Source: Ascidia mentula (taxonomy: Eukaryota > Chordata > Ascidiacea > Phlebobranchia > Ascidiidae). Taken from it: a DNA stretch of 64,000 nt. The stretch's first letter is position 1. The number at the start of each line of letters is the position of its first letter. Made by a program: the position numbers and the translations under genes. The DNA is taken from contig OX387205.1 in assembly GCA_947561715.1 (NCBI GenBank), forward strand, positions 5,337,001-5,401,000, written 5' to 3'. The notes beneath the pieces are model-generated. The model did not search any database, had not been told where the DNA came from, and saw only the letters and a list, made by a program, of their open reading frames with translations. Shown here piece after piece: positions 508-30,340 of the stretch.

Positions 508-1434
508 TAATCAACTGTCTTTCGATACAACCATAGAACGTGTGAATAGTTCTGTTGGATAGAATTAAACTTCTGTTACTGTCAAATGGAAGAATTATTA
601 AAACAGCAGCAAGGCTATGAATAGGAATAAATGTTTATTCCAATGCTTCAAATAACTTTGGGAACAGCTTAGAAAGGAAACAGTGTCATTGGTGAAAAAT
701 TATGCCTTTCCTGATTTTCTCTGGTGCATATAAAGTTAATTTCGTTGTTCAACTGCCTAAGAAAAGCTTTGTAAAGTTAAAATTAAAAAACTAGGCTTTT
801 CAAATTAAATTTTTTCCAAGTCAACATCTGTTGATATTGACCACTTTGCATACATCATCATATCTATTTAATTTTATCAGATTTTGAAAAGAATGAAAGC
901 AACGGAATGTATCATCTTCGTTACATTTACCTTGAAGAGAACATTACTTGGGATGGAGCAAGAACTCATTGCAAAAAAAAACACGAATACAGACCTTTGC
1001 AACAGAACCTAAATTTGCCAAATAAAGAGAGTTCTTTCTACAGGAACCACTTGGGGAATTAATTGGACCCATATAAATCACTTGGTTTTACTTTGACAAT
1101 AGCCCAATTAATTACATTGATCGCTATAGCAGTGATTTCCAAATGTTTCATTTGAGAATATCTATAAAATGGTGTTCTAAATTAGGAATTTTACAGTTAC
1201 ATCAAAAAACAGTTACATCTGATTGCAACTACTTACAGAGACCAAGTGGGCGACTGGATGTCAATTGGTGATGACAACATAGTAAACTCAGCAGGACTTT
1301 GTGAGCGTTACTCTGTGTTGCATAGCAAGCTGTCAAGCTGGGGAAACACAACTGGTCCTTGTCCACCTCTTACTGCAACGTACAACCCTTGTTACGTTAA
1401 AGGAAATGTGTTTTGCTGCAAGCATATAGCTTAA
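508..1434 (+). pseudogene. Copy A: decayed member of the four-exon secreted family
   Basis: Three recognisable pieces remain. At 508-608 is the 3' half of exon 2, very close to the same part of copy H (17.36-17.47 kb), but with in-frame TAG and TAA codons and no GT donor. Exon 3 is at 881-1077: it is 197 nt where every other full copy has 196 (copy C has 195), because an A-run is one base longer, which shifts the frame, and a TAA replaces the Gln codon of the SQIC motif. Its donor position reads TC instead of GT. Exon 4 (1239-1434, 196 nt, acceptor ACAG) is still fully open and ends in the family's FCC motif and a TAA. No signal exon is found. Exon 4 is better preserved than the rest, as expected if it decayed late or was refreshed by gene conversion. 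The 3' flank to about 1630 matches the flank of copy G. Confidence 0.85.
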
Positions 1435-1630
1435 TGCGAATGTAAAAAGTGTGCATAACCGCCTGTCATCAATTATTATTTTGTATCAATGTTTTTTTTA
1501 TCGCAAATGAAACTCAGTTTCATATCCAAGCATTTCACAATCTGCGCTTTTCAAAAATGTTTATCATGTATAAAATCCACGTTAAATTCCGCTGAGCATT
1601 TCTGGTATTGCCTAGAATTCGGTTAAGTGC

Positions 1631-1690
1631 ATGTGTCACGCCATGTTCGGATCATTCGATTTACTGCGAATAAAGAGCAAGCACGCCACA
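1631..1690 (+). repeat. 5' terminal repeat of the gypsy-type fossil
   Basis: About 57 bases ending GCACGCCACA match the last part of the 3' LTR with about four differences. The left edge is placed where similarity to the 3' flank of copies G and A (the conserved GAATTCGGTTAAGTGC) stops. Confidence 0.8.
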
Positions 1691-2989
1691 TTTTGGTGAC
1701 CCCGAGCGTCAAGAAACGATATTTCTTCGACAATGCAGGATCGAGAAGAAGTACTACACACTGCTGTTTCTTTGAAACTACCGACGTTCTGGACTGAACA
1801 ACACCGAGTGGAACAAACCGAAGCACAATTTACGCTGCGCAAAATATCTTGCGATAGAACGCAGTATTATTATGTGGCGTCAGCATTGGACCAACTAACA
1901 GCAAGCCGCCTTTTGGATCTACTTGAAAGTCCGCCTGAGCAGAACAAATACGCAACAATTAAGGAATGCTTGCTTAGAACATTTGGACTTACGGAGTATG
2001 AAAGAGCTGCACGCTTGCTTTACATTACCGAGCTTGGAGACCGATCACCATCGCAGCTCATGAATGAAATGTTGTCCCTGATGGCCGGTCATAAACCATG
2101 TTTTTTGTTTCACTACATTTTTCTTGGAACCTTGCCAGAAAAAATTCGGCTCGTGTTGACAAAAGAGACGTTGGTCGAACCAAGGCAATTAGCACAACGT
2201 GCCGACGTAGTTTGGAAGTCAAGAAACAGCGAGCAATTTTTCGTTTCAAAAGTCCGCAAGCGTGAAATGCCTTCAGCAAGACCAGCGCAGCAATCAAGTA
2301 AGAACGGTTTCTGCTTTTATCACCAACGCTTTGGCGACCGTGCCCTTAAATGCCAGGAACCAGATTTAGTTGCCGTCAAGTTTTCTTGGAAGTTTGTTTT
2401 AGCCAACGTGCCCAGGCCGCTTCTCGGAGCAGATTTCCTGCGCGCAAATTCCTTGCTTGTCGACCTGAGGCACAAATGCTTGTTAATTGCTCGTTCCTTT
2501 GCGAGTGCACCACTTCATTGTACCAATCACTCACCAATGCAACTCAAAGACAAGTAACAACATTTACGCACAATTGCTAACGCAGTTTCCTTCCATAACT
2601 ACTCCCAAGTTCTCCGCAGCAACACCAAAACATCAGGTGGAACACTACATTCCGATTGTCGGTCCACCAGTTCACGCAAAAGCACGACGCTTGTCGCCAG
2701 AAAAATTGCAAATAGCAAAACGCGAGTTTTCTAAAATGTTGCAACTGGGTATTATTCGCAGATCTTCGATCACCATTACATATGGTGCCGAAATCATCCG
2801 GTGATTGGCGACCGTGTGGCGATTATCGCCGTCTGAATGAGAAGGGGCTGTAACGTTACGGCTAACATAGGTAAGCGTCCAAGATCAGTAAACTAGACAA
2901 AATCGGTAACCCAAACACGTGACTGCAGCGGCAACCAGGGAGGGTACATATTTTCATCCAAGGGGGGTAATTGAAATCATTTACTTTAT

Positions 2990-3430
2990 ACCTTGTACTG
3001 TGTCCACGATAGGTAACTTTGTTATACGTTAGAGTAGTCACGCTATACCTTGCACTATGTCCATGATGGGTAAGTTTGTTAAACGTTAGAGTAGTCACGC
3101 TATACATTGCACTATGTCTATGATAGGTAAGTTTGTTAAACGTTAGAGTAGTCACACTATACCTTGCACTATGTCCATGATAGGTAAGTTTGTTAAACGT
3201 TAGAGTAGTCACGCTATACCTTGCACTATGTCCATGATGGGTAAGTTTGTTAAACGTTAGAGTAGTCACGCTATACCTTGCACTATGTCCATGATAGGTA
3301 AGTTTGTTAAACGTTAAGGTAGTCACGCTATACCTTACACTATGTCCATGGTAGGTAAGTTTGTTAAACGTTAAGGTAGTCACGCTATACCTTGCACTAT
3401 GTCCGTGATGGGTAACTTTGTTAAACGTTG
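2990..3430 (-). repeat. 57-bp tandem repeats, left arm (about 8 units)
   Basis: Same unit as the right arm but inverted. It has no stop codon in one frame on the minus strand, giving a 199-codon open frame (2862-3461) that also runs through the unique terminal part. Units differ by a few substitutions. The arm is about six times shorter than the right arm. Confidence 0.9.
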
Positions 3431-3439
3431 AACAATTAA

Positions 3440-6250
3440 CGAACTTACCTATGATGGGCATAGTGCAAGGTATAGCGTGGCTAATCTAACGTTTAACAAA
3501 CTTACCTATCATGGACATAGTGCAAGGTACAGCGTGACTACCTTAACAATTAAGAAACTTACCTATGATGGACATAGTGCAAGGTATACCGTGACTACCC
3601 CAACGTTTAACAAACTTACCTATCATGGACATAGTGCAAGGTATAGCGTGACTACCCTAACGTTTAACAAACTTACCTATCATGGACATAGTGCAAGGTA
3701 TAGCGTGACTACCCTAACAATTAAGAAACTTACCTATCATGGACATAGTGCAAGGTATACCGTGACTACCCCAACGTTTAACAAACTTACCTATCATGGA
3801 AATAGTGCAAGGTATAGCGTGACTACCCTAACGTTTAACAAACTTACCTATCATGGACATAGTGCAAGGTATAGCGTGACTACCCTAACAATTAACAAAC
3901 TTACCTATCATGGACATAGTGCAAGGTATACCGCGACTACCCCGACGTTTAACAAACTTAGCTATCATGGACATAGTGCAAGGTATAGCGTGACTACCCT
4001 AACGTTTAACAAACTTACCTATCATGGACATAGTGCAAGGTATAGCGTGACTACCCTAACGTTTAACAAACTTACCTATCATGGACATAGTGCAAGGTAT
4101 AGCGTGACTACTCTAACGTTTAACAAACTTACCTATCATGGACATAGTGCAAGGTATAGCGTGACTACCCTAACGTTTAACAAACTTACCTATCATGGAC
4201 ATAGTGCAAGGTATAGCGTGACTACTCTAACGTTTAACAAACTTACCTATCATGGACATAGTGCAAGGTATAGCGTGACTACTCTAACGTTTAACAAACT
4301 TACCTATCATGGACATAGTGCAAGGTATAGCGTGACTACCCTAACGTTTAACAAACTTACCTATCATGGACATAGTGCAAGGTATAGCGTGACTACTCTA
4401 ACGTTTAACAAACTTACCTATCATGGACATAGTGCAAGGTATAGCGTGACTACCCTAACGTTTAACAAACTTACCTATCATGGACATAGTGCAAGGTATA
4501 GCGTGACTACTCTAACGTTTAACAAACTTACCTATCATGGACATAGTGCAAGGTATACCGTGACTACCCCAACGTTTAACAAACTTACCTATCATGGACA
4601 TAGTGCAAGGTATAGCGTGACTACTCTAACGTTTAACAAACTTACCTATCATGGACATAGTGCAAGGTATACCGTGACTACCCCAACGTTTAACAAACTT
4701 ACCTATCATGGACATAGTGCAAGGTATAGCGTGACTACCCCAACGTTTAACAAACTTACCTATCATGGACATAGTGCAAGGTATAGCGTGACTACCCTAA
4801 CGTTTAACAAACTTACCTATCATGGACATAGTGCAAGGTATAGCGTGACTACCCTAACGTTTAACAAACTTACCTATCATGGACATAGTGCAAGGTATAG
4901 CGTGACTACTCTAACGTTTAACAAACTTACCTATCATGGACATAGTGCAAGGTATAGCGTGACTACCCTAACGTTTAACAAACTTACCTATCATGGACAT
5001 AGTGCAAGGTATAGCGTGACTACCCTAACGTTTAACAAACTTACCTATCATGGACATAGTGCAAGGTATAGCGTGACTACTCTAACGTTTAACAAACTTA
5101 CCTATCATGGACATAGTGCAAGGTATAGCGTGACTACTCTAACGTTTAACAAACTTACCTATCATGGACATAGTGCAAGGTATAGCGTGACTACTCTAAC
5201 GTTTAACAAACTTACCTATCATGGACATAGTGCAAGGTATAGCGTGACTACCCTAACGTTTAACAAACTTACCTATCATGGACATAGTGCAAGGTATAGC
5301 GTGACTACTCTAACGTTTAACAAACTTACCTATCATGGACATAGTGCAAGGTATAGCGTGACTACCCTAACAATTAACAAACTTACCTATCATGGACATA
5401 GTGCAAGGTATAGCGTGACTACCCCAACGTTTAACAAACTTACCTATCATGGACATAGTGCAAGGTATAGCGTGACTACCCCAACGTTTAACAAACTTAC
5501 CTATCATGGACATAGTGCAAGGTATAGCGTGACTACCCTAACGTTTAACAAACTTACCTATCATGGACATAGTGCAAGGTATAGCGTGACTACTCTAACG
5601 TTTAACAAACTTACCTATCATGGACATAGTGCAAGGTATAGCGTGACTACTCTAACGTTTAACAAACTTACCCATCATGGACACAGTGCAAGGTATAGCG
5701 TGACTACCCTAACGTTTAACAAACTTACCTATCATGGACATAGTGCAAGGTATAGCGTGACTACTCTAACGTTTAACAAACTTACCTATCATGGACATAG
5801 TGCAAAGTATAGCGTGACTACTCTAACGTTTAACAAACTTACCTATCATGGACATAGTGCAAGGTATAGCGTGACTACCCTAACGTTTAACAAACTTACC
5901 TATCATGGACATAGTGCAAGGTATAGCGTGACTACTCTAACGTTTAACAAACTTACCTATCATGGACATAGTGCAAGGTATAGCGTGACTACTCTAACGT
6001 TTAACAAACTTACCTATGATGGACATAGTGCAAGGTATAGCGTGACTACTCTAACGTTTAACAAACTTACCCATCATGGACACAGTGCAAGGTATAGCGT
6101 GACTACCCTAACAATTAAGAAACTTACCTATCATGGACATAGTGCAAGGTATAGCGTGACTACTCTAAAGTTTAACAAACTTACCTATCATGGACACAGT
6201 GCAAGGTATAGCGTGATTCCCGTAACAATTAATGAAGTTACCTATCGATG
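3440..6250 (+). repeat. 57-bp tandem repeats, right arm (about 49 units)
   Basis: The unit contains CATGGACATAGTGCAAGG and is 57 bp (3 x 19), so a frame free of stops in one unit stays open across the array. The resulting 924-codon frame (3477-6251) encodes a 19-residue repeat (NKLTYHGHSARYSVTTL core). Variants include ACTCTA/ACCCTA, GTTTAAC/AATTAAG and TATAGC/TATACC. I read this frame as a by-product of unit length and not as a gene. Confidence 0.92.
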
Positions 6251-8442
6251 ACGCAGTACAGGTTAAATGATTTTAATTACTCCCCTTGGATGAAAATATG
6301 TACCCTCCCTGTTTTCCGCTGCAGTCACGTGTTTAGGTTACTGATTTTGTCCAATTTACTGATCTTGGACCCTTACCTATGTTAGCCGTAACGTTACAGC
6401 CCTATATGGTCTGAATGCTGCCACAATACCAGACCGCTACAATATACCGCACATTCAGGACTTTAGTTCTCGTCTTGATGGAGCAAAAGTGTTTTCAAAA
6501 ATTGATTTGGTGCGTGGATACCATCAGGTGCCAGTTGCTAAAACCGACATTCCAAAGACAGCCGTCATCACCCCCTTTGGTTTATTTGAGTTTCTTCGCA
6601 TGCCTTTTGGATTAAAGAACGCTGCTCAAGCTTTTCAAAGACCTATGGATTCTGTTTGTCAATCATTAGATTTCACCTTTGTTTACCTAGATGACATACT
6701 GGTTGCGAGTTCCTCGTTAAAGGTTCACCGCACACATCTCAAACAACTATTTCAACGACTTGCAGACAATGGCCTTGTCATTAACGTGAATAAATGCGTT
6801 TTCGGAAAAACGCAAATTGATTTTCTGGGACATCGAATCGATTGCAACGGTGCTCAGCCACTTCCTGACAAAGTTTTAGCCATTCAACGTTTTCCGCCAC
6901 CAATTACGATTAAGAGCCTACAAGAGTTTGCTGGTATGATTAATTTTTATCATCGCTTCATTCCTGCGGCTGTTAAAATCATGTCCCCAATCTTTCAACA
7001 ATTTTCTGGTAAAAATTTACAGCTGCAGTGGACACCTGAATTAAATGCCTCCTTTGAAAACACAAAAATGGCTCTGCAACGTGCAACCATTTTGTGCCAT
7101 CCGCAACCACGGGCTCCAACGGCATTAACCATGGATGCGTCGGATAAAGCTATTGGCGCGGTATTGAAGCAGCAAATCAATGGAATTTGGAAGCCGTTGA
7201 CTTTCTTTAGCAAGCATCTGCGACCCGCAGAAACAAAATACAGCACTTTTAATCGTGAGCTTTTGGCGTTGAATCTTTCTGTTCGCCACTTTCGAACTTT
7301 TCTTGAAGGTCGAACGTTCACCGCGTACACTGATCACAAGCCTTTAACGTTCGCTCTGAAGAAGCAGTCGGAACCTCTTTCTGCTCGACAGCAACGCCAT
7401 TTAACTGCTGTATCCGAATTTACAACGGATGTTGGACACATAGAGGAAAAACAAAATGTTGTTGCAGATGCATTGGCCCGGTCGTTCATTGCCTCTGCAG
7501 ATCAAGCATATATTGACCTTGATTACACGCCCTCGCTGCTGCTCAACAAGAAGTACAAGCATACCGCACAGCGCCTACCAAGTTAAAGCTTCAAGACATA
7601 AAGTTTGAACCTGGTTTAACGCTCTTATGTGACATGTCAACCGGTTCCCCTCGACCAATCATTCCACAACCATGGCAACGTCGTGTATTTGATGTGATTC
7701 ACGGGTTGGCGCATCCTTCTGTTCGAACCACACATGATAGCCCGATTTGGCGTTCCATCTCAAGTTACCTCCGATAGAGGTTCGCAATTTACATCGGATC
7801 TGTTGGTGATTGTTACCAATGTTATTGGTATTAAGCGAAACTGCACAACAGCTTTCCGCCCTCAAGCAAATGGTCTTGTGGAACGTTTTCACCGACACTT
7901 AAAAAGTTCCTTAATGGCCAGACTGAACTCTTCAAATTGGATAGATGAGGTGCCATGGGTGTTGCTGGGAATCAGGGCCATGCCGAAAGATGATCTTCAA
8001 TCCTCCAGCGCTGAGCTGGTATATGGCGAACTGATCACTGTACCGGGTGATTGCATTCCGCACACCACCACTGCCGTTAAACCCTAGCAATTTCTTAAAA
8101 CGCTTCGCAGTTCCGTTTCCCGTGTTCTACCTGTACCAATGTCCCGCCATCGAACTTATCGTACTTTTGTTCCTGATTTGCTTTTTACTTGCGAGTATGT
8201 GTTTGTTCGGAAAGATGGATACCGTCCTCCTTTAAATTCACCATATCAGGGACCTTTTCATGTTGTAAACCAAAACGACAAATATTTTGTGTTAGATATT
8301 TTTGGAACTCGGCAAACAGTCTCCATTGATCGCCTTAAGCCGGCCTTTATTGATGCAACACAGCCAGTTACACAAAAGCCTAAAAAAAGAGGCCGACCTC
8401 CAAAAAGTGCAAAACCCGCTTCTGGGGGGGGGGGGGGAGTAA

Positions 8443-8563
8443 TGTAGCGACATAATATGTTGTAAAGATGTACCGTCGCGGGTTGTGTAAGTTTTAGTGC
8501 GTGTTGTGTCACGCCATGTTCGAATCATTCGATTTACTACGAATAAGGAGCAAGCAAGCCACA
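8443..8563 (+). repeat. 3' LTR of the gypsy-type fossil
   Basis: About 121 bases starting TGTAGCGACA and ending AGCAAGCCACA, directly after a run of 14 or so G residues that acts as the expected polypurine tract. Its last 57 bases match the repeat at 1631-1690. Confidence 0.8.
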
Positions 8564-8723: not shown

Positions 8724-8781
8724 CTTGACAGACAGTCGTAAAAGTGACAACTAGTAAAAGACTTACTGCGATCAAACGCAT
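8724..8781 (-). pseudogene. Orphan signal-peptide exon (exon 1 only)
   Basis: ATG at 8781-8779 opens a 58-nt exon whose product (MRLIAVSLLLVVTFTTVCQ) is identical to exon 1 of copies D and E. The splice donor has changed from GT to AT, and no exons 2-4 follow downstream on the minus strand, where pseudogene A and the gypsy insertion now lie. The remainder of this gene has been lost. Confidence 0.85.
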
Positions 8782-8789
8782 GTCACCTT

Positions 8790-9696: not shown

Positions 9697-11302
9697 TTAC
9701 GGAACAGGTCCGCAACAAAACACATGTCCTTTAACGTAACAAGGGTTGTACATTGCAGTAAAAGGTGGACAAGGACCAGTTGTGTTTCCCCAGCTTGGCA
9801 GCTTGTTATACAACACAGAGTAACGCTCACAAAGTCTTGTTGAGTTCACTATGTTGTCATCACCAATTGACATCCAGTCGCCCACTTGGTCTCTAAAACG
9901 TTTTGTACAGGTAAATCGAAAAAAATATTTTAAGTACAAAAAAGGCCTGTATAAACCCACTTTTATATACAAGGAACTTTTCAACAAAGTTGTGTAGTTA
10001 AAATTTAATTGCACTATACGTCAAAGTGCAATAAGACCGTAGTGCGTGGATAAATTTGATAATTCACATTAACTTCACAGCCGAGACAATGCTGTATAAT
10101 AAGATAAGTGTAATAGCTCTGATATTTTACACAGGGCAGCCATCATATACCTTACAGGTGTCCAATTGTTGCCAAAGGTGGTTTCAGTAATAAGGACTTT
10201 CTTGTTTTGGCAAATTTGTGTGCTGTTGCAAAGATCCCTTGTAGGTCTTGCATTACAAACAGCCCTTGCACTTTCCCATGTCAAGTTCTTGGCAATATAG
10301 TGGGAGTAGATTTTGTATGATCCGTAGGTTTCGTTTTTGCCCAAACCTATTAAAATCAATTTTTATTTTCAGAACATTAAAGATTGGAAATATTGGGAAA
10401 TAATATGTTGAAACTTTACTTTGGCCACATGTAGCCGCTATTTTTAGGCATGGAATTAACGCCCAGTAACGGACGTGACTTCATCGGTTAAAATAACCTC
10501 TTAAATTATAGCTCTTTAAAAAACAAACACAGACGTACTGCCGTTAAAGTAACGCTTCCAATAGACATCAATAGATGTTTGATTCCACCCAGAAGTGCTA
10601 TTCGTTCTTGTTATAGTGGCTTCAAAAGATTGAAGGTGAACTTCGAAGACGTAGATGTCAAGTTTCAGTGATGACGATTTGGTCGTGTTTGCTCTCGCAT
10701 CCACGTGCTTTGCGATTTGTCTGAAGCATCTTTGATATGCTACAGTGACGTTGATGCTATTGGCCGTTGTACCAACGTCGAAAGTGGTTTTACGGCCTGA
10801 AGATGATGATCCAATTACTGTTTTGATTAACTAGATGCTTTGGCAATTTTGTAATTAGATCTAAATTATTATATTATGCTCTAAGGATGGTTCGTAAAAG
10901 TGTTGCGGTTGTGGTAATTACCCGGAATGGATTTCGTTGGTACGAATCATGACAATAGAACCGCAGACAGTTCAACTTGTGTCTACCCATGGTTTTAGTA
11001 ACCTGCTGGCCAGATGAAAACAAATCCTCGAAGTGGTGACTGTGCAGTCACTGTCATTCCATTTTGGCATCATAACATTATAGGTACCAGCATCCGGAGA
11101 CAAATAACGGTAGAATCCGCTCTGGGCAGCAGGTCAGTCAAACCGTTAGCAGTCACAATTTTGTATTTAAATTTGTAAACCATCTGTCGTTAATCTTATC
11201 TGAATCCAAGTAATAATTCCAACAACTACTTCCAGTTTACGTACCTTGACAGATGGTGGTCAAAGGGACAAAAAGCAAAATCTCAACCACATCCAAACGC
11301 AT
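9697..11302 (-). CDS. Copy B: intact four-exon secreted Cys-rich protein
   Basis: Exons on the minus strand: 11302-11245 (58 nt, signal peptide MRLDVVEILLFVPLTTICQ), 10796-10539 (258), 10346-10151 (196), 9892-9697 (196, TAA). All junctions are GT-AG and phases 1, 1, 2 join into one frame of 708 nt, 235 residues. After the signal peptide comes a variable domain (GTTANSINVTV near its start, SGWNQTSIDVYWKRY near its end). Exons 3 and 4 form a Cys-rich domain with NLTWESARAVC, LCNSTQIC, NNWTPV, GDWMSIGDD, SWGNTTGPC and a final FCC. Many N-glycosylation sequons fit an extracellular protein. From memory, the pattern LC..QIC / WTPV / W..IGD / SWG / CC resembles an uncharacterised domain in secreted proteins of marine eukaryotes. 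Function unknown. It is head to head with copy G. Confidence 0.85.
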
Positions 11303-12394: not shown

Positions 12395-14232
12395 ATGCCT
12401 TTGGCTGTAGTCGGTATTTGGGTTCTTGGTCTTTTTCATCGTTTGCCAAGGTACGTAAATAAGTAATTGTTCTTAAAAATTATAAAAAGTGTAGTTCGAT
12501 TGAGGTGATGTAGACAGAGACCATTGAAATACAAACAATGGTAATTAAGAACCAATTACTTTATGGTTAGGAATAATTACCGCCATCAATCAAATAAATC
12601 CATGGACCTATGCCAAAACGTTAAAACAGTACGTGTTTTTGTCTATTATCTACAGGTCGAACTCCTACGAGAAAAACCAGATTCGATGTTGGTACAACTG
12701 CCGATAGCATAAACGTCACTGTGCCATATCAAAGATGTGCAATTAAAGTCGCAAAGCACGTGGATGCGAGAGCAAGACCAAATAAACCGTCTTCACTAAA
12801 GTTTAATATTTTTGTCTTCGAAATTTACCTTCAGTCTTTTGAAGCCACAATAACAAGGGCGAATAGCAATTCAGGATGGAAGCAAAAGCCTATTACTGTT
12901 TCTTGGAAGCGTTACTACAACAGATGTAAGTTTGTGTTGGTGGTTTAAAGTAGACCCATAAGCTTAATAGAGTATTTGCATTACACCGTGTTCCATGAAA
13001 CCAATATACGGTAACAAATTTAAACAGGAATTGGATTGTTTTAGACCAGAAGATCTTAACCTGCGGGAACTTTTCCACCAGTGTGAAATTATGGTGTTGT
13101 CGGCACCGAAATATACAAGAGTAGCTGAAAAAGAAATTTTATATTTTGTATTCACTGTGTTTCGTACCTTAATTTGCCAATTGGTCACGCAATGCGGCCT
13201 AAAAAGTTAAAAAACTATACCAGATAAGCGAAAATGCAATAATTAAATTCTCAGTTAAAATGTTTTAATACCAGTTGGAAAAAAGTGTTCCGTTTAAAAT
13301 GAAAGTTAGAAATGAGATAAAAGGTTAGGAACCATTGTTTTAGACAAAGTCTAATTTACAAAAGGCTTCAAGAGCTTAGTAGTCCTTTAGTGGAATATAT
13401 TTTGGTGGAGCAGTTAACTGTATTTTTTATCGATCAATTTTGTTCCAAAAAAAATCTTTAAATGTTTTTAGTTTTGCAGAAGAACCAAACATACGGATCA
13501 TACAAACTACAATATTACCACCTTGGCTATAACTTGACATGGGATAGTGCCAGAGCTGTTTGCAAGTTGAAAAAGAAATTTAAACTTTGCAACAGCACAC
13601 AAATTTGCCAAAACAAGAAAGTTCTTGTAACTGAAACCACTTTTTGCAACAATTGGACACCTGTAAAGTATGTGGTATCCAATAACTGATAGCAAACGTG
13701 CGAGATGTTCGCAATTATTGCAATCATTTTTGCGAAATCCTTCGAAACCTCTTAAGAATACAAGAAAGTTTTTTGGTTTCGTATGCTGCACATAACCTCG
13801 TATAATGGGAGGGGGGGTATTTTAAAAATTTGTAGTAATATATCATAATATACTATCAGTAATATAGTGGTACAACTTCCAAAAACTTTGTTTTAAAGGT
13901 AAGTGATATTAGTTCTAATGAGGTAGGATATTTTAAATTCGTCGATATCCTATTTGTTGCAACATGTCCAACACATGCATGGGTTTGGATGTTCATTACA
14001 GCAATTAATTTGAACTGTTATCTGAGTTGTTTTCAGGGATCTAGCGGGCGACTGGATATCAATTGGTGATGACAATGTAATCAACTATACAAGACTTTGT
14101 GAGCGTTACTCTGTGTTGTATAACAAGCTGCCAAGCTGGGGAAACACAACTGGTCCTTGTCCATCTTTTACTGCAATGTACAACCCTTGTTACATTAAAG
14201 GACACGTCTTTTGCTGTAAACCTAAAGCTTAA
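12395..14232 (+). pseudogene. Copy G: nearly intact family member with damaged signal exon
   Basis: Exon 2 12656-12925 (270 nt), exon 3 13472-13667 (196) and exon 4 14037-14232 (196, ends TAA) are open and have canonical GT-AG borders in the family phases. The product has RFDVGTTADSINVTV, SGWKQKPITVSWKRY, NLTWDSARAVC, LCNSTQIC and FCCKPKA. Exon 1 at 12395-12450 is recognisable (ACAAGATAGCA before its ATG, CCAAG/GTACG donor) but is 56 nt instead of 58. The ATG frame is therefore out of phase with exon 2, and the frame that fits exon 2 (FLVFFIVCQ, a good signal-peptide core) meets a TAG before any ATG. Either a recent 2-nt loss killed the gene or another first exon exists. Codon GAT-CTA-GCG at the exon 4 start differs from the GACCAAGTG of its relatives. 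Confidence 0.7.
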
Positions 14233-15063: not shown

Positions 15064-15470
15064 TACACAAAGTTTTTATTGAAAAATAATATCTCCATTT
15101 GATAACAATAGAGGTGTCGCCAAGCTGACACACGCCGTGAACCGAAAAATCTGAGGAAAACACTGCTTCAAAGTACAGTTCATTTAATAGTTCGATTGGT
15201 TGACAGTATTTTCGTCACAATGTCGTTTTTATGAAACCATTACTTAACATTATCTGCAAAGCATACCTTGACAAACTGACTTCAAAGCAATAACAAGAAA
15301 TATTGCAATAAAAAGCGAACTCATGTCTATTTAGTGAAGCCGACAGCAACAAGTGTTGCCAAAAAGTTGCCGATTCCATGGATACACATACTTCCTGTTT
15401 ATGAGAGTTCTCGAAAAAAAATGACCGTCTAATAGCAGTAATTTCCTCATCAAAACTTTATGGTTGCTTA
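15060..15470 (-). repeat. Inverted-repeat arm (left) around divergent first exons
   Basis: Reverse complement similar to 16500-16907 over about 410 bases (for example CATGGATACACATACTTCCTG and GGTGTCGCCAAGCTGACAC). It contains the orphan exon at 15267-15324. Identity by eye is around 85-90%. Confidence 0.75.
15267..15324 (-). pseudogene. Orphan signal-peptide exon facing copy H
   Basis: A 58-nt exon with ATG at 15324-15322, product MSSLFIAIFLVIALKSVCQ, and an intact CAAG/GTATG donor. It is the sister of copy H exon 1, on the opposite strand. About 200 bases into intron 1 the sequence breaks off at 15060, and no exons 2-4 follow. The promoter and exon look healthy, so transcription into unrelated sequence is possible. 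Confidence 0.8.
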
Positions 15471-16499: not shown

Positions 16500-16907
16500 A
16501 CAACCGCAAAGTTTGATGAGGAAGTCACTGCTATTAGACAGTCATTTTATCTTAACTCTGATAAACAGGAAGTATGTGTATCCATGGTATAGACAACGTT
16601 TTAGCAAAACTAGTTGCTGTCATCTTCACTAAATAGACATGCTGAGTTGTCTTGTTATCGCAATATTTCTTGTTATTGCTTTGGAGTCAGTTTGTCAAGG
16701 TATGGTTTACAGTAAATGTTAAATAATATATCAGAATGAAAGTGTAAAAAAATACTATGTAAACGAATCGAACTATTAAATGGACTTTACTTTAAAGCAG
16801 TGTTTCCTCATATGGCTCGGTTCACTGCTGTGTGTCAGCTTGGCGACACCTCTATTGTTATCAAATCGAGATGTTATTTTGCACTCAAAACTTTATGTAG
16901 TCGACAG
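16500..16907 (+). repeat. Inverted-repeat arm (right), holds copy H exon 1
   Basis: Partner of 15060-15470. Exon 1 of copy H lies at 16639-16699. The arm extends from the promoter through exon 1 into intron 1, so the divergent pair arose by an inverted duplication. Confidence 0.75.
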
Positions 16908-18403
16908 AAAACACTCCACCAAAAAAAGGGATTGTTTGTGCAGCGCCCTGCCTAATAAATACAAAAACATAATTATAATAATTGGCTACAGCTATGCGAT
17001 CCAAAAGGGTGGGTTTAGTAGATTAGAGTTAACTGTTCTTGGACGGTACGTTTGGTGAGCTAGTACCAACTTTGATGGGATACACTTAAAAAACCGTATT
17101 CCTTTTATATCATATATAAAACCACAAAGAGTTTCAACACCAAATTATTTTCATTTGTATCATAATTTTGTAAGACATCGCGCTCTTTTTCGACAGGTCG
17201 ATATAATGATGGAAAAAGTACCTTCGATATTGGCACAACCACAAATGCAATAAACGTCACAGTGGCCTTTGAAGCATGTTTTGGTTCAGTTCCTAAACAT
17301 GTGGATGCGAAAGTGTCGACAACTATACAGTCTTCACTTCAGCTTGACATACACATCTACCAAGTTAATCAACTGTCTTTCGATACAACCATAGCACGTG
17401 TGAATAGTTCTGTTGGATGGAATCAAACTTCTATAACTGTCAAATGGAAGAATTATATGAACAACAGTAAGTCTATGAATAGTAATAAGTTATGTGTAAT
17501 GCTTCAAAATACTTTGTATACAGCTTGGTAAGGAAATGGGGTTGAACAAATAATATGAATTGACCCCGTTAACCACACCTGAGTCAATTATCTTTCTTTG
17601 CAGATTTTCTCTGGTGCATATACAGTTTTTCATCAACCGACTAAATTAAAGATAAACTTTGAAAAGTGTGAAATTTAAAAACTAGGCTTCTCAAATAAAG
17701 TTATGTCAAAGTCGACATCTGTTTATACAACTATTTATTTTTTTTATCAGATCTTAGAAAGAATGAAAGCAACGGACTTTATCAACTTCGTTACATTTAC
17801 CTTGGAGAGAACATTACTTGGGATAGCGCAAGAACTCGTTGCAAAAAATACACGAATAGAGACCTTTGCAACAGAAGCCAAATTTGCAAAAGCCAGAAAG
17901 TTTTTTCTACAAGAACCACTTGGGGAATTAATTGGACCCCTATAAAGCACGTGGTTTTACTTTCACGTTGACAATAGACCGATTAATTACATTGATCACT
18001 TATATAACTACAAACATATTTGTAATTTACGTCGTTACTTTTGTTTGGCGGTGGACAGTAATTTCAAATTAACAGTGATTTTCAAATGTTTCATTTAAGA
18101 CTATCCATAAAATGGTGTTCTTAATTTAGAATTTTACAGTTACATCCAAAAATGTTTAGGAAGTTCATTAATTTCAACAATTTAAATCCGATTGCACCTA
18201 CTTGCAGAGACCAAGTGGGCGAATGGATGTCCATTGGTGATGACAACATGGTGAACTCAACGAGACTTTGTGAGCGTTACTCTGTGTTGTATAACAAGCT
18301 GCCAAGCTGGGGAAACACAACTGGTCCTTGTCCACCTTTTACTGCAATGTACAACCCTTGTTACGTTAAAGGACACGTGTTTTGTTGTAAACCTGTAACT
18401 TAA
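16639..18403 (+). CDS. Copy H: four-exon secreted Cys-rich protein with a GC donor
   Basis: Exons 16639-16699 (61 nt, signal MLSCLVIAIFLVIALESVCQ), 17197-17466 (270), 17751-17946 (196) and 18208-18403 (196, TAA): 723 nt, 240 residues, phases 1, 1, 2. Exon 2 carries STFDIGTTTNAINVTV and SVGWNQTSITVKWKNY. Exon 3 has NITWDSARTRC, LCNRSQIC and GINWTPIK. Exon 4 has GEWMSIGDD, PSWGNTTGPC and FCCKPVT. Introns 1 and 2 are GT-AG. Intron 3 would have to start with GC (AA/GCACGT), because the only nearby GT gives the wrong frame. GC-AG introns exist but this one is a weak match, so the gene may be mis-spliced or dying. Exon 3 is closest to copy A, exon 4 to the minus-strand copies. Same family function, unknown. 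Confidence 0.75.
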
Positions 18404-19675: not shown

Positions 19676-20619
19676 TTACTGAGCGGGTTTGCAACAAAAC
19701 ACATGTCCTCAAACGTAGCAAGGGTTGTACATTGCCGAAAAAGGTGGACATGGACCAGTTGTGTTTCCCCAACTTGGCAGCTTGTTATACAACACAGAGT
19801 AACGCTCACAAAGTCTTGTTGAGTTTACTACGTTGTCATCACCAATTGACATCCATTCGCCCGCTTGGTTTCTGCAAAGAGCAGATTAAAATTATTTGTT
19901 GTGATTAAATGAACATATGAATTCCTGTATATACCCAAGGCACGGCAAACTTTAATACAAATCTATACCGGATGTCAAAAAACATAACGCGAACATCGAT
20001 CAGTTATTACGTGGTTTTGGTAAACTGTAATCAGTGCATGTTTGTGTTTTCCGTTTTTCAAGAAAATCGAAATCATAATCACACGACGTACCCTATAGGT
20101 GTCCAATTGTTGCCAAATGTGGTTTTAGTTAGAAGAACTTCCTTGCTTTGGCAAATTTGTGTGCTGTTGCAAAGACCCCCTTCGGTTGCAAGTTGTTGCA
20201 AACAACCCTGGCGCTTTTCCACGTCAAGTTCTCGCCAAGGTAATAATAGTTAATATAGTAAGGTCCAAACGTATCCTTCCTGATAACTGAGAAAAATACA
20301 AAGAATCCTTTTGAAAAATTTAAGATAAAGTTCTGTGTAGTCGGTAGTGAGGTTGTAGCATATTATGTAATGCATTTTTTATAGCTTTTAATTGCTTTAA
20401 CCAACATTCATTCATCAACGAACGCCTCTTTACGATACTCGTGCGATTTTAATCCGATAAGTTTATGAGTTTATTAGTAAGGCTTCGTGACACTGCATCA
20501 CTAAAACCCAATAAATCAAATCACATTTAACTTCAAATAAAATTATTTCTAAAACTTATGCCTTGACAGACAGTCGTGAAAGTGACAACTAGTAAAAGAC
20601 TTACTGCGGTTAAACGCAC
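19676..20619 (-). pseudogene. Copy C: decayed family member lacking exon 2
   Basis: Exon 4 (19871-19676, 196 nt, acceptor TTGCAG) carries a TGA where relatives have the Lys codon of YVKGH. Exon 3 (20286-20092) is 195 nt: one base is missing in GGGGATCTTTGC, shifting the frame before the LCNSTQIC motif. No exon 2 exists between exon 3 and the next exon 1-like block at 20619-20562, whose ATG has become GTG and whose donor has become GC. Exon 3 still resembles copies D and E (TFGPYY, GENLTW). Clearly non-functional. Confidence 0.85.
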
Positions 20620-21126: not shown

Positions 21127-21184
21127 CTTGACAGATGGTGGTCAAATGGACAAGAAGCAAAATCCCAACCACAGCCAAACGCAT
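21127..21184 (-). pseudogene. Orphan signal-peptide exon, copy B type
   Basis: A 58-nt exon, ATG at 21184-21182, product MRLAVVGILLLVHLTTICQ, donor CAAG/GTACG intact. The 450 bases upstream match the promoter side of copy B (11.30-11.79 kb), including the ACAAGATAGCA before the ATG. Its downstream exons are gone. Confidence 0.85.
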
Positions 21185-22471: not shown

Positions 22472-22754
22472 CAGGGTTTTCCAAACTTTTTTGGCCGCGG
22501 ACCCCATTTTGTGAACCTGTTTTTTCTTGGACCTCCTGTCTTACGTCACATCATTTCGCAACGTATTCAGCGCTGAAATTTCTACAAACAATATCAACAA
22601 TAACGAATATCAACAAGCGATAAGTGTGAAACCATACGTCATAGTCGCGTAGCGAAAGAAAGAAAAAATTTTTGAAACAACCTTAAAATCAAAACATACG
22701 AGTTTTTTTTGAGGTATTATTAAGGACCCCTGAGAACTTGTTGTGGACTCCCAA
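22472..22754 (+). mobile_element. Truncated hAT-like non-autonomous element (copy 2)
   Basis: Begins CAGGGTTTTCCAAACTTTTT followed by GGCCGCGGACCCC, a hAT-style end, and shares its interior with the element at 14.6-14.8 kb. Its far end stops at about 22754, where intron 1 of a family gene resumes without a matching terminal repeat. Together the two copies show both ends of one element. Non-coding. Confidence 0.6.
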
Positions 22755-22785
22755 TTTTGCAAGACATCGCGGTGTTTTTCGACAA

Positions 22786-22922
22786 GTCGATATAATACTG
22801 GACAGATTACCTTCGATATTGGCTCAACCGCAAATAAAATGAATGTCACAGTGGTCCTTAAAAATTGCTTTGGTTCATTTCCAAAACATGTGGATGCGAA
22901 TGCGTCGACAACCTCATAGTCT
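22786..22922 (+). pseudogene. Scrap of exon 2 fused to 3' flank
   Basis: The first about 135 nt of an exon 2 of the copy H type (GQITFDIGSTANKMNVTV, PKHVDANASTT) behind an acceptor changed from ACAG to ACAA and ended by TAG. The sequence then jumps directly to the family's 3' flank (GTGTGCATAGAACCG), so the rest of exon 2 and exons 3 and 4 were deleted. Confidence 0.8.
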
Positions 22923-23887
22923 GCGTAAAAAAGTGTGCATAGAACCGTCTGTCATTTATTATTTTGTATAAATGTTTTTTATCGCGAATGAAAATCAGTT
23001 TCATATCCAAGCATTTCACAATCAGATATCTTCATAATCCATAAAATCCTCGTTAATATCCGCTGAGCATTCCTGGTAATGCCTAGAATTCGGTTGAGCA
23101 CATTCATATATATTATTTGGATATGCTGGAACGTATTGGAATATGGAAACCTAAAATATTGACCGTGAATTATATATTGAAATATATTAAGTGCGTTTAA
23201 CTCGAATGTAATCTGTTGCTTGGAATTCGAGCATTATTCCATAGAATTTACGCATGAAAAATAGATAGCAAACACTATGGGTTGGATTACTGAAATTCTT
23301 TTTTAAGATATCTTTGTGTCTGTGCCACCTCATTGATAAATTGTGTCAATATTATGTAAAAATAGGCAGTTTAATTTCTGGACTTACAAAGTATATGCAT
23401 GGCACAGAAGCTTATACCCTGTTTGGCTTAAAAGTAAAAAAATATTTTCAAGGTAGGACAGTTTTATAATGTTTGTTATTCGGGAAAGTTAAACATGTTG
23501 TGACTTTGCCAAAGGAAGATATTTTATGGTTTTCAGAATTGCATTAGCACTTATTGACTATATCCTAAAAATACAGAGGCTAATAAATCTCAATTATAGA
23601 ATCTTCAAAAAAACAGTTTTAAATATTTTTATTTGCAATTCAGACCAAAGGGATTGATTAATTTGTAGAAAAAAAGCAACATATTACTTTGCAAATCATG
23701 AATATGTACAAATTGAACTTACAGATGGTGCAATTACCATTGACCAAACGGAGTAGTTTGGAATCAAATTATCACTCACTATTTTAAAGTGTTTGATTTT
23801 ACATGAAACACAGACTGATAATTGAGGTTCTCGACAGAGTGCATTTCAAAAACAGATAATTCTTATTCACATGAAAAACATCTAAAT
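22923..23887. other. Tail-to-tail spacer, duplicate of 18.4-19.7 kb
   Basis: Plus-type 3' flank followed by minus-type 3' flank, in the same order as between copies H and C. No gene seen. Confidence 0.6.
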
Positions 23888-25293
23888 TTACTGAGCAGGT
23901 CTGCAACAAAAAACATGTCCTTTAACGTAGCAAGGATTGTACATTGCCGTAAAAGGTGGACATGGACCAGTTGTGTTTCCCCAACTTGGCAGCTTGTTAT
24001 ACAACACAGAGTAACGCTCACAAAGTCTTGTCGAGTTTACTACGTTGTCATCACCAATTGACATCCAGTCGCCCACTTGGTTTCTGCAAAGAGTTTAGAT
24101 TCAAATTAGATGTAGTGATTAAATGAACATCGAAACTCCTGCATGTGATGCCAACTAACATACGCACTGACAAAGCAAACCCCAAAAAATTCGATAAACA
24201 AATACAAGAATTTCGTACACCAACAGTCATAAGCACCTTTTACAAGAGAATTTTTCAGATTTGGTGGGATGCCCACATTACAATTCGATGGATATTAAAG
24301 TGAACCATCACACGACGTACCCAATAGGTGTCCAATTGTTGCCAAATGTGGTTTCAGTTACAAGAACTTCCTTGTTTTGGCAAATTTGTGTGGTGTTGCA
24401 AAGATCCCCTTTTGGTTGCAATTTGTTGCAAACAATCCTGGCGCTTTCCCATGTCAAGTTCTCGACAAGGTGATAATAGTAAATATAGTAAGACCCAAAC
24501 GTATTCACTTTTTCAACTGAGAAAAATAAAAGATTGTTTTTGAAAGTTAAAGACAACGTTCAATGTAGTCTGTAGTGAAAATGTACTATATTGTGTAATG
24601 CATTTTTTATCGCTTTGATTTGTTTCAACCAACATTCATTCATCAACGCACGTCACTATGAAAATCGACTCCTCACGTATATAAAACGCGAACAAACTTA
24701 CCGTGATTGACGTAACGCTTCCAAGAAACAGAAACAGACGTTTGATTCCATCCTGAAGTACTGTTCATCCTCACAATAGTGGCATCGAAAGAAAGTACGT
24801 TATTTTTATAGACATGGTTGTTAAACTTTATTGATGACGTTGGCGTTGTTCTTGCTATTGCATACATGTACTTCGCCGCTTTATTGTAACACTTTTCATA
24901 AACCACAGTTACGTTGATACTATTTGCAGTTGTTCCGAGATCAAGATACTTTTTCTCAAACGACGTCGGCCTGTTGAAACAGCAAGAAAAATCATGAGAA
25001 GATCTGGATTAGATTTATAGATCCTTCAGCCCATTGCTCTTCAAATGTATTGTTACGTATATATTGATGATCTTAAATAAATATATTTAATTGGGATAAA
25101 ACTTGTTCACGGATAATATGCCAAGGTTAGGTAGCTCGGTAAGTTGTTAGAAAGTTTTATTAGTAAGGTTTCGTGACACTGCATCGCCAAAACCAAATAA
25201 ATCACATTTAACAAAATTGTTACTAAAATACATACCTTGACAGACAGTCGTGAAAGTGACAACTAGTAAAAGACTTACTGCGATCAAACGCAT
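23888..25293 (-). pseudogene. Copy D: family member with a single frameshift
   Basis: Exon 1 25293-25236 (58 nt, MRLIAVSLLLVVTFTTVCQ), exon 2 24970-24702 (269), exon 3 24516-24321 (196), exon 4 24083-23888 (196, TAA). All borders are GT-AG. Exon 2 is one base shorter than the 270 nt of copy E: near 24951 a run of three T is two, shifting frame before the DLGTTANSINVTV motif. Everything downstream is open (YEKCYNKAAKYMYA, SGWNQTSVSVSWKRY, NLTWESARIVC, LCNTTQIC, NNWTPIG, FCCRPAQ). With only one defect, this is either a young pseudogene or a base-calling error, so the intact alternative is a 239-residue secreted protein. Exon 2 and 3 sequence is closest to copy E; the duplication unit is about 2.47 kb. 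Confidence 0.75.
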
Positions 25294-26345: not shown

Positions 26346-27771
26346 TTACGGAGCAGGTGTGCAACAAAACACATGTCCTTTAACGTAACAAGGGTTGTAC
26401 ATTGCAGTAAAAGGTGGACATGGACCATTTGTGTTTCCCCAGCTTGGCAGCTTGTTATACAACACAAAGTAACGCTCACAAAGTCTTGTTGAGTTCACTA
26501 TGTTGTCATCACCAATTGACATCCAGTCGCCCACTTGGTCTCTAAAAAGTCTTGTACATAGGTAAATCGGAAAAAACATTATTTCAAGTACAAAGAAAGC
26601 ATACATAATCCCACTTTAAAATATAAAGAACGTTTGAAACAGAGATGTGTAGTTAAAATTTAAATGTGCACTATGACTGTAGCCATACCCGAAAAAATGC
26701 TGTATCGTTGAATTAATGTGACAACTGAGACTGCATGATATTTCTTTAAATATTTTACGCCAGGCAGTTAGCACATACCTGACAGGTGTCCAATTGTTGC
26801 CAAAAGTGGTTTCAGTAATAAAGACTTTCTTGTTTTGGCAAATTTGTGTGCTGTTGCAAAGATCCCCTTTTGATTGCAACTTGTTGCAAACAACCCTGGC
26901 GCTTTCCCATGTCAAGTTCTCGCCAAGGTAATAATAGTAAATATAGTAAGGCCCAAACGTATTCACCTTTAAAACTGAGAAAAATATAAAGATTGTTTTT
27001 TAAAGTTAAAGACAAAGTTCAATGTAGTCTGTAGTGAAAATGTACTATATTGTGTAATGCATTTTTTATCGCTTTGATTTGTTTCAACCAACATTCTTTC
27101 ATCAACGCACGTCACTATAAAAATCGACTCCTCACGTATATAAAACGCGAACAAACTTACCGTGATTGACGTAACGGTTCCAAGAAACAGCAACAGACGT
27201 TTGATTCCATCCTAAAGTACTGTTCATCCTCACAATAGTGGCATCGAAAGAAAGTACGTTACTTTTATAGACATAAATGTTAAACTTTATTGATGACGTT
27301 GCAGTTGTGCTTGCTATTGCATATATGTACTTTGCCGCTCTATTGTAACATTTTTCATAAACCACAGTTACGTTGATACTATTTGCAGTTGTTCCGAGAT
27401 CAAAGATACTTTTTCTCAAACGACGTCGGCCTGTTAAAATAGCAGGGAAAACCATATGGAGATTTTGATTAGATTTATAGATACTTTAACCCATTGCTCT
27501 TTAAATGTAGTGTTACGTATATATTGATGACATTATATGCTATAGCATGAATATATATATTTAATTGGCATAAAACTAGTTTACGGATAATATGCCAAGG
27601 TTAGATAGCTCGGTAAGTTGTTTAAAAGTTTATTAGTAAGATTTCGTGGCAGTGCATCACCAAAACCAAATAAAACAAAACACATTTAACAAAATCATTA
27701 CTAAAATACATACCTTGACAGACAGTCGTGAAAGTGACAACTAGTAAAAGACTTACTGCGATCAAACGCAT
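26346..27771 (-). CDS. Copy E: intact four-exon secreted Cys-rich protein
   Basis: Exons 27771-27714 (58 nt), 27430-27161 (270), 26974-26779 (196), 26541-26346 (196, TAA); GT-AG borders; phases 1, 1, 2; 720 nt, 239 residues. Signal peptide MRLIAVSLLLVVTFTTVCQ. The variable domain begins GRRRLRKSIFDLGTT and ends LGWNQTSVAVSWNRYVNH. The Cys-rich domain has TFGPYYIYYYYLGENLTW, VVC, LCNSTQIC, NNWTPV, GDWMSIGDD, LCERY, SWGNTNGPCPP and VFCCTPAP. The C-terminal domain has eight cysteines, three from exon 3 and five from exon 4. Numerous NxT/S sequons. Probably secreted; role unknown. It is almost a duplicate of copy D over exons 1-3, while its exon 4 and 3' flank match copy F. Confidence 0.87.
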
Positions 27772-28818
27772 GTTACCTTTTAAAACTATCCCCTAAAATT
27801 AAATCTCTGTTAATATTGTACCATAATGTGCAGTGAATACGTAATTGTCCGATTTATTTGAAGCTATCAAATAAATCATTAACATATTTTAGGTTTTCAA
27901 AACGCACAAAGTTATTTTGCGCCCAAAAGCACACAAAGTTGTATTCAAATACCTAATTTCAACAATTATTCCAGCTTTTGATTATATCACACATTCTGGT
28001 TAGACCCAACTGTTTGTGACTAGCAAGTACTTTTTGGACGCAACTCAAAACATTTTGACAATGTAGCAGTTTTTTTGGGAAAAACATGCAACGACCATTA
28101 ACATGTTTCAAACAGACTTGTCGGCAGTGGTACAAATTCGGCTATGGTATGTTTATGTGTGCTTGTGTTTATACAACATCCTTAAGCTGAGTATTTAGTT
28201 ACTTGTTTATTGTTGACAATGTCAAGTTGTAAAGACGAAATTAATCAAAAAACTTCATCAAACTGCTAACACGAACATCCTGTTTTCACCAGTTTCCTGT
28301 GATTGTGTGTTAACATACCGCGCTGCAGCTACGTATACCCACAGTAAGTTGCATAAATGCTGTAACTGGCTCGCAAAATATGAAAATGTGCAAATAAGCC
28401 CGTGTAGTTTATTGACATGACACAAGTGCCGTAACTGCATGCAAAGTTCAAAGAAAGCCAGTAGAAAAATAAGCAATGACATAAGTGTCACAAAAAAGTT
28501 TTTATTGATATAATTTAAACCATGGACATTAAGGAAGTAGAAATTAAATACAAAATATACACATTAATCTGCAAAACCAAAGTTGTAACTTACGGTGATG
28601 TCGTATGTAAAGTACATCGCCTGTATTGTTGAATATAAAAACAATAACATTACAAACAATACGATAAGATTACTTGAGTGAGTTCTATTCTAGTGAAACA
28701 TATTGTCTGTTGTCTGTTCAGACTCAGGGTTTAACATCCATACCCGACATTCAGGACAGATAGTCACTTTAAATTGTTTAAACTTGTTTATTTACATTTT
28801 AGCCTGAGACACATGACT
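27772..28818. other. Spacer between copies E and F
   Basis: Near-identical duplicate of 25294-26345, shifted by about 2.47 kb, with small indels. Same possible small minus-strand frame (28491-28258). Nothing else seen. Confidence 0.5.
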
Positions 28819-30340
28819 TTACGGAGCAGGTGTGCAACAAAACACATGTCCTTTAACGTAACAAGGGTTGTACATTGCAGTAAAAGGTGGACAAGGACCA
28901 GTTGTGTTTCCCCAGCTTGGCAGCTTGTTATACAACACAGAGTAACGCTCACAAAGTCTCGTTGAGTTTACTATGTTGTCATCACCAATTGACATCCAGT
29001 CGCCCACTTGGTCTCTAAAAAGTGTTGTACAGGTAAATCGGAAAATCATTATCTTAAATACAAAGAAAGCATACATAAACCCACTTTAAAATATAAAGAA
29101 CTTGTTTGAAACAGAGATGAGTTTTAAAAATTTAATTGTGCACTATGACTGTAGTCATACCCGAAAGAATGCTCTATCATTAGATTAATTTGATAACTGA
29201 GACTGCATGATATTTCTTCATATATTTTTCGCCAGGCAGTTAGCACATACCTGACAGGTGTCCAATTGTTGCCTAAAGTTGTTTCAGTAATAAGGACTTT
29301 CTTGTTTTGGCAAATTTGTGTGCTTTTGCAAAGATCCCTTGTCGGTTTTACTTTGCAAACAGCCCTTGCACTTTCCCATGTCAAGTTCTTGGCAATATAG
29401 TACGAGTAGATTTTGTATGATCCGTAGGTTTCGTTTTCCCTTAAACCTGTAAAAATCAATTATTATTTTCCGAACATTAAAGATTTAAATTATTGGTAAA
29501 AAATATGTTGAAGCCTTACTTGCCACATGTAGCCGCTAATTTTATGCATAGACTTAACGCCTTTTAAGGGCGAGACTGCAGTAAAATACTCTCATACTTT
29601 AGCGTTCTTAATAAACATAGACGTACTGCTGTTAAAGTAACGCTTCCAATAGACATCAATAGATATTTGATTCCACCCTGAAGTGCCATTCGTTCTTGTT
29701 ATAGTGGCTTCAAAAGATTGAAGGTGAACTTCGAAGACGTAGATGCCAAGTTTCAGTGATGACGAAGTAGTAGTGTTTGCTCTCGCATCCACGTGCTTTG
29801 CGATTTGTCTGTAGCATCTTTGATAGTCTACAGTGACGTTGATGCTATTGGCCGTTGTACCAACGTCGAATGTGGTTATACGGCCTGTAGATGATAATTT
29901 TAATACTGTTATAATAAACTGGATGTAAATTACTATGCACTAAGGCAATGTATTTCAACCTGTTGGACTGTCCGCACTATTTCATTATGATAATTTGTTG
30001 TGTGTATGAGTGACATGGTGCGGATGAGTGCGGATGACAATTGCCCGATAAATAGTCTTTTAAGTTTCGTTTGAATCATGCCCGTTGATTTGATGCCATA
30101 TTGTTAATTTAAGTTTATTGTAAGAGTTATTGGAGTAGTTGTAATTATTCTGGTGGGTTTATCAAGCTGATTCTTTTGTTTGTCTCGTTTCATTACAATG
30201 TCGAACAAAAAATAACTGTAATGTAAATCTAACATGCTTTTATAACTATAAATTATCACACAAAAATCACAAAAACACATACCTTGTGTAAAAGTCGTCA
30301 AAGCTGCAGAGAGGAAAATATTGACTGCAGTCAAGTCCAT
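28819..30340 (-). CDS. Copy F: intact four-exon secreted Cys-rich protein
   Basis: Exons 30340-30283 (58 nt), 29884-29627 (258), 29446-29251 (196), 29014-28819 (196, TAA); GT-AG borders; 708 nt, 235 residues. The signal peptide MDLTAVNIFLSAALTTFTQ is unlike all other copies. Exon 2 (TTFDVGTTANSINVTV, SGWNQISIDVYWKRYFN) and exon 3 (ENETYGSYKIYSYYIAKN) are copy B type, while exon 4 and the 3' flank match neighbour E (ending FCCTPAP). The protein is therefore a mosaic of the two subfamilies. It is the last family member; beyond 30340 no further copy is seen. Secreted, glycosylated, function unknown. Confidence 0.87.

Follow-up and report, generated by a model that had tools for sequence, protein, structure and literature searches.

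The window analyzed here, a stretch of 64,000 nucleotides from the ascidian Ascidia mentula (chromosome 9, contig C73, positions 5,337,001-5,401,000), lies in a tandem array of four-exon genes that probably encode secreted two-domain glycoproteins and evolve through duplication of segments, decay of copies, and regional gene conversion. Birth and decay of genes and exchange of exons within the array are real. The wider reading is derived from the sequence, from which we further infer a binding role for one part of the protein and a possible covalent dimer. The genome searched contains matches to glycosyl hydrolase 6, a tunicate hallmark among animals. It comprised 195.8 Mb in 79 contigs and represents a single haplotype; the alternate haplotype is GCA_947561685.1 (PMC11109543).

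Extent of the array and architecture of its products

The array spans C73:5.270-5.554 Mb, about 284 kb, so that the span described in a first-pass annotation of the window amounts to roughly one-tenth of it. The analysis of the array covered 261 kb (C73:5,260,001-5,401,000 and 5,441,001-5,561,000); in the intervening segment, 5,401,001-5,441,000, the whole-genome search for DUF7495, the Pfam domain encoded by exons 3 and 4, listed 0 matches. Nhmmer searches with the four exons of the gene at window positions 28819-30340, exon 1 being searched with four queries, yielded 33, 31, 32, and 43 matches to exons 1 to 4, far above chance, with exon-4 E-values reaching 6e-59. These matches form 50 exon chains, including 14 single-exon chains, 43 chains with exon 4, and 15 open four-exon models; the other 35 are not open, most chains of the array being broken or partial. 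Chains were built by proximity and introns reach 3.6 kb, so that a few models may fuse neighbors. The exon-4 matches are distributed over both strands (23 minus, 20 plus), with 23 strand switches along the array. The window itself holds 12 chains, single-exon fragments included, 8 of them with exon 4 (5 on the minus strand and 3 on the plus strand); four chains are open, and the remaining four loci with exon 4 are either broken or incomplete.

Among the 15 open models, exon 1 measures 58 nt (nine models) or 61 nt (six), exon 2 measures 270 nt (11), 258 nt (3), or 252 nt (1), and exons 3 and 4 are invariably 196 nt long. All acceptors are AG, and splice phases are constant. Donors are GT throughout in eight models, whereas six models carry GC at intron 3 and one, from subfamily E, carries GC at intron 1. 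Four subfamilies are distinguished among the open copies: D (6), E (5), F (3), and C (1). The GC donor at intron 3 is present in all six open subfamily D models, the window gene at 16639-18403 among them (window 17946-18208), and recurs in several broken D-like copies, which indicates that it is an old feature of this subfamily. Within subfamily D, the proportion of nonsynonymous differences (pN, 0.054) is lower than that of synonymous differences (pS, 0.117), which argues that the D genes have been kept as coding despite the GC donor.

The predicted protein comprises about 234 to 240 residues: a hydrophobic segment from exon 1, which we judge from its hydrophobicity to be a putative signal peptide; a domain encoded by exon 2; and DUF7495 (PF24325) across exons 3 and 4. 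For the product of the gene at 28819-30340, the DUF7495 match extends over residues 125-231 and profile positions 10-107 of 109, with a score of 47.5 bits against a cutoff of 27 (E = 2.4e-12). A Pfam scan to an E-value of 10 with this one full window protein yielded nothing beyond DUF7495. The mature proteins contain nine cysteines in 14 of the 15 open models and ten in the other; one is placed in the exon-2 domain and eight in exons 3 and 4, and the C terminus carries a Cys-Cys pair. Each of the 15 proteins has 7 to 11 N-glycosylation sequons. An alignment of nine DUF7495 domains from this genome, three of them from the window, contains 14 invariant columns that include cysteine, tryptophan, and the terminal Cys-Cys; this framework was defined from the alignment and not from the Pfam page.

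DUF7495 is a Pfam family without a stated function, to which the array copies add an N-terminal domain lacking a Pfam match. No paper naming DUF7495 or PF24325 was found in the literature searched, and searches for ascidian families that are tandem, secreted, subject to conversion, or evolving in concert, made in literature listings apart from subscription journals, did not find the array family. Profile searches of the PDB produced no convincing relative of solved structure for either domain. One match of DUF7495 to part of trypsin chains (E = 0.0049) was judged to be due to chance, being a short, cysteine-driven stretch. The exon-2 domain resembles a motif of H-type lectins (GF...W...W), without statistical support. 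Such lectins, for example Helix pomatia agglutinin and the C-terminal domain of discoidin, are trimers built on a six-stranded beta-sandwich. Hhalign placed the motif of both in one register, at a probability of 0.4% and an E-value of 0.17; a whole-genome search with PF09458 to an E-value of 10 gave 13 weak matches, none over the cutoff and none at exon-2 loci, and no lectin appeared among the matches of the exon-2 profile in the PDB. The H-type lectin assignment was thus not supported.

Both domains have relatives elsewhere in the genome. At least seven further places outside the array carry DUF7495: a gene at C2:3.17 Mb possesses both domains, as in the array, and further DUF7495 exons lie on C67, on C72, and at other places on C73. 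At C2:10.83 Mb, one frame scores for DUF7495 and CUB, and a frame upstream shows a partial, sub-cutoff kringle match; the former frame probably also contains the start of a second DUF7495. The exon-2 domain recurs in a second array at about C69:13.4-18.2 Mb, dense at 14.7-15.5 Mb, in which the genome search found no DUF7495 match. Within 8 kb of this array (C69:15117501-15125500), six exon-2-type domains are interspersed with EGF-like frames, and EGF was scored in the one frame scanned.

Much of the first-pass annotation agrees with these results. It had proposed at least eight loci of one four-exon family on both strands, as the eight exon-4 loci of the window bear out, and a range of 258 to 270 nt for exon 2, which holds for 14 of the 15 open models. 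The constant splice phases that it described recur in the open models, though the donors are not all canonical, and its count of three intact copies and one nearly so fits in number the three GT-AG genes and the one gene that needs a GC-AG intron. The many sequons and the C-terminal cysteine pair were likewise found, and its single family, tandem on two strands and subject to birth and decay, corresponds to 15 open models among 50 chains, with duplicated blocks and sequence exchange. The family had not been recognized by name: this stands for exon 2, which has no Pfam match, but not for exons 3 and 4.

Duplication, exon exchange, and selection

Duplicated blocks occur in both orientations and reach 4,439 nt at 95.7% identity and 2,526 nt at 99.2%. 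A tree of exons 2 and 3 places subfamilies D, E, and F each in one clade (bootstrap, 99 to 100). Across the 77 pairs of open genes from different subfamilies, pS reaches 0.611 for exon 2 and 0.527 for exon 3 but only 0.238 for exon 4 (codon bootstrap, 0.161-0.326), and the drop relative to exon 2 or 3 exceeds zero in all 5,000 of 5,000 bootstraps. Mean nucleotide identity over the same pairs is 65.2%, 68.8%, and 90.0% for exons 2, 3, and 4, respectively. For example, D and F share 49% of their residues in exon 3 and 91% in exon 4. In exon 3, D or F and the gene on C2 have 42 to 47% identical residues, near the D-F level. Among pairs of DUF7495 genes located elsewhere in the genome, identity is not raised in exon 4 (e.g., 55% in exon 3 and 47% in exon 4), and the uniformity of exon 4 is therefore not a general property of DUF7495.

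The match between D and F is a stretch of 208 nt at 93% identity that starts 2 nt before exon 4 and ends 10 nt past the stop codon. The neighboring F and chimeric genes of the window also match, at 91%, in the intron and over 600 nt of the 3' flank. In the chimeric gene (26346-27771), the sites diagnostic of E and F are nearly all of E type up to alignment position 441 and all of F type from position 485; three earlier single sites are of F type within the E-type part. Exon 1 is also exchanged: it is F/B-like in an E gene outside the window and E-like in the C gene. A recombination walk over 2,002 triplets gave 141 at p = 1/2001, uncorrected, where about one would be expected by chance, and the best exon-4 tree breaks the subfamily clades held by exons 2 and 3. 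The array, as read from these sequences, thus combines lowered synonymous divergence in exon 4 with a mosaic gene, two marks of regional gene conversion.

A comparable layout is described for the clustered protocadherins of vertebrates, tandem paralogues in which regional gene conversion homogenizes the 3' coding part and the 5' part remains divergent, with elevated GC content at third codon positions (GC3) in the converted parts (PMC1852091). The array resembles them in its uniform 3' part beside a divergent 5' part. Protocadherins are not related to the array genes but are transmembrane cadherins, their variable exons being single and divergent, and exon 4 of the array lacks a rise in GC3 over exon 3.

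Selection was estimated among paralogues, and the estimates concern divergence between copies rather than allelic or copy-number variation. Pooled Nei-Gojobori ratios of nonsynonymous to synonymous substitution rates (dN/dS) over 105 pairs are 0.57, 0.34, 0.38, and 0.24 for exons 1 to 4; within the three subfamilies with at least two open models, omega is 0.44, 0.34, and 0.38. Codon models M0, M1a, and M2a, implemented in our own code on the IQ-TREE topology with branch lengths scaled together, gave M0 omega values of 0.448, 0.430, and 0.320 for exons 2, 3, and 4. M2a improved on M1a in neither exon 2 (p = 0.91) nor exon 4 (p = 0.38). For exon 3, two sites fall in an omega 5 class with posterior >0.8, at a p value of 0.016 that is nominal, three exons having been tested, and that we do not trust because the mosaic point lies inside exon 3 and recombination can mimic selection. 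Rapid diversifying evolution, as expected of the immune, allorecognition, or gamete-recognition families with which the first-pass annotation compared the array, was not shown: omega is below 1 in every exon, and the one nominal signal is confounded by recombination.

Copies and neighboring elements in the window

The gene copies and fragments of the window are collected in Table 1. The C-type copy at 12656-14232 and the open C gene, which lies beyond the window, are 94.4% identical over 2,693 nt. The exon-1 remnant that belongs to the decayed D-type copy at 508-1434 lies 731 bases upstream of the window start; its exon-2 remnant was spotted by eye, and the nhmmer profile search did not report it.

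Table 1. Gene copies, fragments, and the exchange interval in the window (window coordinates)
Feature	Position	Strand	Details
Open gene, subfamily F	9697-11302	-	Exons 11302-11245, 10796-10539, 10346-10151, 9892-9697; GT-AG throughout; 235 aa
Open gene, subfamily D	16639-18403	+	Exons 16639-16699, 17197-17466, 17751-17946, 18208-18403; open only with GC-AG intron 3
Open chimeric gene, E then F type	26346-27771	-	Exons 27771-27714, 27430-27161, 26974-26779, 26541-26346; GT-AG throughout
E-to-F switch interval, exon 3 of chimeric gene	26823-26867	-	Last E-type diagnostic site 26867; F-type run starts 26823
Open gene, subfamily F	28819-30340	-	Exons 30340-30283, 29884-29627, 29446-29251, 29014-28819; GT-AG throughout; 235 aa; DUF7495 47.5 bits
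C-type copy, exons 2-4 open, no exon 1 found	12656-14232	+	Exons 12656-12925, 13472-13667, 14037-14232
Decayed E-type copy	23888-25293	-	Exons 1, 3, 4 consistent; exon 2 without open splice-consistent frame
Decayed copy	19676-20619	-	Remnants of exons 1, 3, 4; no exon 2 found; TGA in exon 4
Decayed D-type copy	508-1434	+	Exon-2 remnant ~508-607 (by eye); exon 3 broken, 881-1077; exon 4 open, 1239-1434
Isolated exon-2 fragment	22808-22924	+	nhmmer, exon-2 positions 11-127
Isolated exon 1 (signal-peptide exon), open, GT donor candidate	21127-21184	-	
Isolated broken D-type exon 1	15267-15327	-	Head to head with D gene at 16639
Isolated exon 1	8724-8781	-	No donor at expected border

Head-to-head pairs of D-type exon 1 were found at five places on C73 (5305605/5307145, 5311692/5313894, 5332312/5336269, 5352327/5353639, and 5474051/5475197), with spacings of 1.1 to 4.0 kb. 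Four of these pairs combine an open member with a broken one; in the first, neither is open.

Other elements are interspersed with the genes. A broken Gypsy-like element occupies window positions ~1640-8560, with reverse transcriptase and RNase H at 6363-7586 and a DUF7041 frame at 1700-2557. It is split by an insert of about 3.5 kb (~2847-6410) that has inverted ends, as seen by eye, and contains a 57-bp repeat in two arrays of opposite orientation (2987-3429 and 3436-6246). A Penelope-like frame of 784 residues at 33501-35855 gives sub-cutoff reverse transcriptase and GIY-YIG matches, and an inverted Penelope-like frame of 365 residues at 32468-33565 gives a sub-cutoff GIY-YIG match. A satellite with 34/68/239-bp periods extends from 41096 to the window end at 64000, inside the gene array, and is strongly strand asymmetric (AT skew, ~0.5; GC skew, ~-0.2). 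Finally, a minus-strand frame at about C73:5.2655 Mb, near the left end of the array, may encode part of ornithine decarboxylase.

Competing explanations and significance

In the explanation that we consider probable, the sequence shows an array that grows through duplication of multigene blocks in both orientations, with decay of many copies, and in which exchange of segments keeps exon 4 nearly uniform across subfamilies and gives rise to chimeric genes; in exons 2 and 3, the distance between subfamilies is similar to that from paralogues on another chromosome. Judging from established knowledge of such architectures, the products would be exported, folded outside the cell, N-glycosylated, and disulfide rich, either soluble or bound to the matrix. 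The divergent N-terminal module, which looks beta rich, might determine what the protein binds, and the uniform C-terminal half might serve a shared fold, partner, or assembly step; both are guesses, as is the idea that the odd ninth cysteine in the N-terminal domain would permit a covalent dimer. Several results weigh against this explanation. Seven of the 15 open models require a GC donor. A structure prediction for the exon-2 domain, made with five peptides of the window, was poor (mean predicted local distance difference test [pLDDT], 46.6) and was discarded; it was also the prediction consulted for the six-stranded beta-sandwich of H-type lectins. Approximately unbiased (AU) tests on the 196 nt of exon 4 leave the subfamily clades unrejected (p = 0.47, 0.30, and 0.15), so that the tree conflict is weak by itself; the case is carried by synonymous divergence, the control outside the array, and the mosaic. 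Lastly, GC3 is not higher in exon 4 than in exon 3 (0.417 versus 0.404; p = 0.53); the comparison of exon 4 with exon 2 gives p = 0.006. GC-biased conversion was not supported.

The absence of a GC3 signal and the end of the similar stretch near exon borders would also be compatible with constraint on synonymous sites, through an RNA-level function or overlapping information, in place of conversion or exchange. This we regard as improbable: outside the array, DUF7495 genes differ in exon 4 as much as they do in exon 3, and the mosaic is direct, the F gene and its chimeric neighbor sharing intron and flank as well. Less probable still, and in our view very unlikely, is a mostly dead array in which open frames are recent unbroken duplicates from which no product is made. 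The 35 chains that are not open and the dependence on GC donors would suit it, but pN is below pS within three subfamilies and the cysteines are conserved in 15 of 15 models. The main rival concerns function. Bulk structural or secretory proteins (of tunic, egg coat, mucus, or hemolymph) could have been amplified for dose, homogenization keeping the products interchangeable. Purifying selection, the uniform C-terminal half, and the typically extracellular contexts of the two domains elsewhere (the exon-2 domain beside EGF, DUF7495 beside kringle and CUB) are all in keeping with amplification for dose, whereas dose alone does not require subfamilies whose exons 2 and 3 have diverged like paralogues elsewhere; we hold it to be a serious possibility, albeit clearly the less likely one.

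Next stands a recognition repertoire (immune, allorecognition, or gamete) under diversifying selection, in which N-terminal variants would bind different ligands and novelty would be favored. Ciona v-Themis and s-Themis self-incompatibility proteins and the immune lectins VCBP are multicopy or variable secreted recognition proteins of tunicates; their hallmark domains (fibrinogen-like, PKD1-like, V-type immunoglobulin, and chitin-binding) are absent from the one full window protein scanned. Such a repertoire would fit a large lineage array in which many copies are decayed and some are chimeric and whose products are secreted and glycosylated and have a divergent N-terminal module; the two exon-3 sites with their nominal p value agree with it as well. 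However, omega is below 1 in all exons, exon 2, the module expected to vary, gives no signal, and the exon-3 result may reflect the recombination switch and the number of exons tested. A repertoire of this kind is thus rather unlikely, and an immune or gamete role for the array proteins is a guess. A more elaborate version seems more doubtful again, taken as a whole: a self-renewing recognition repertoire of a solitary ascidian, directed at self or microbes, in which exon-sized conversion would hold the C-terminal exon of each gene uniform beside a divergent N-terminal module and new chimeras would go on arising from exchange at exons 1, 3, and 4. The uniform exon would then be the gene-by-gene counterpart of the constant part that clustered protocadherins share.

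DUF7495 in Pfam and the layout of a homogenized 3' part with a divergent 5' part are known already; this array and its unnamed second domain are added here. With the favored explanation of duplication, decay, and regional conversion, DUF7495, a domain without a function, gains a concrete animal setting in a large, partly intact array, and an N-terminal domain without a name is seen to serve two large arrays. Conversion confined to one exon would constitute a clear case that bears on homogenization as function versus by-product. A recognition role, if true, would make these genes a new tunicate recognition family.

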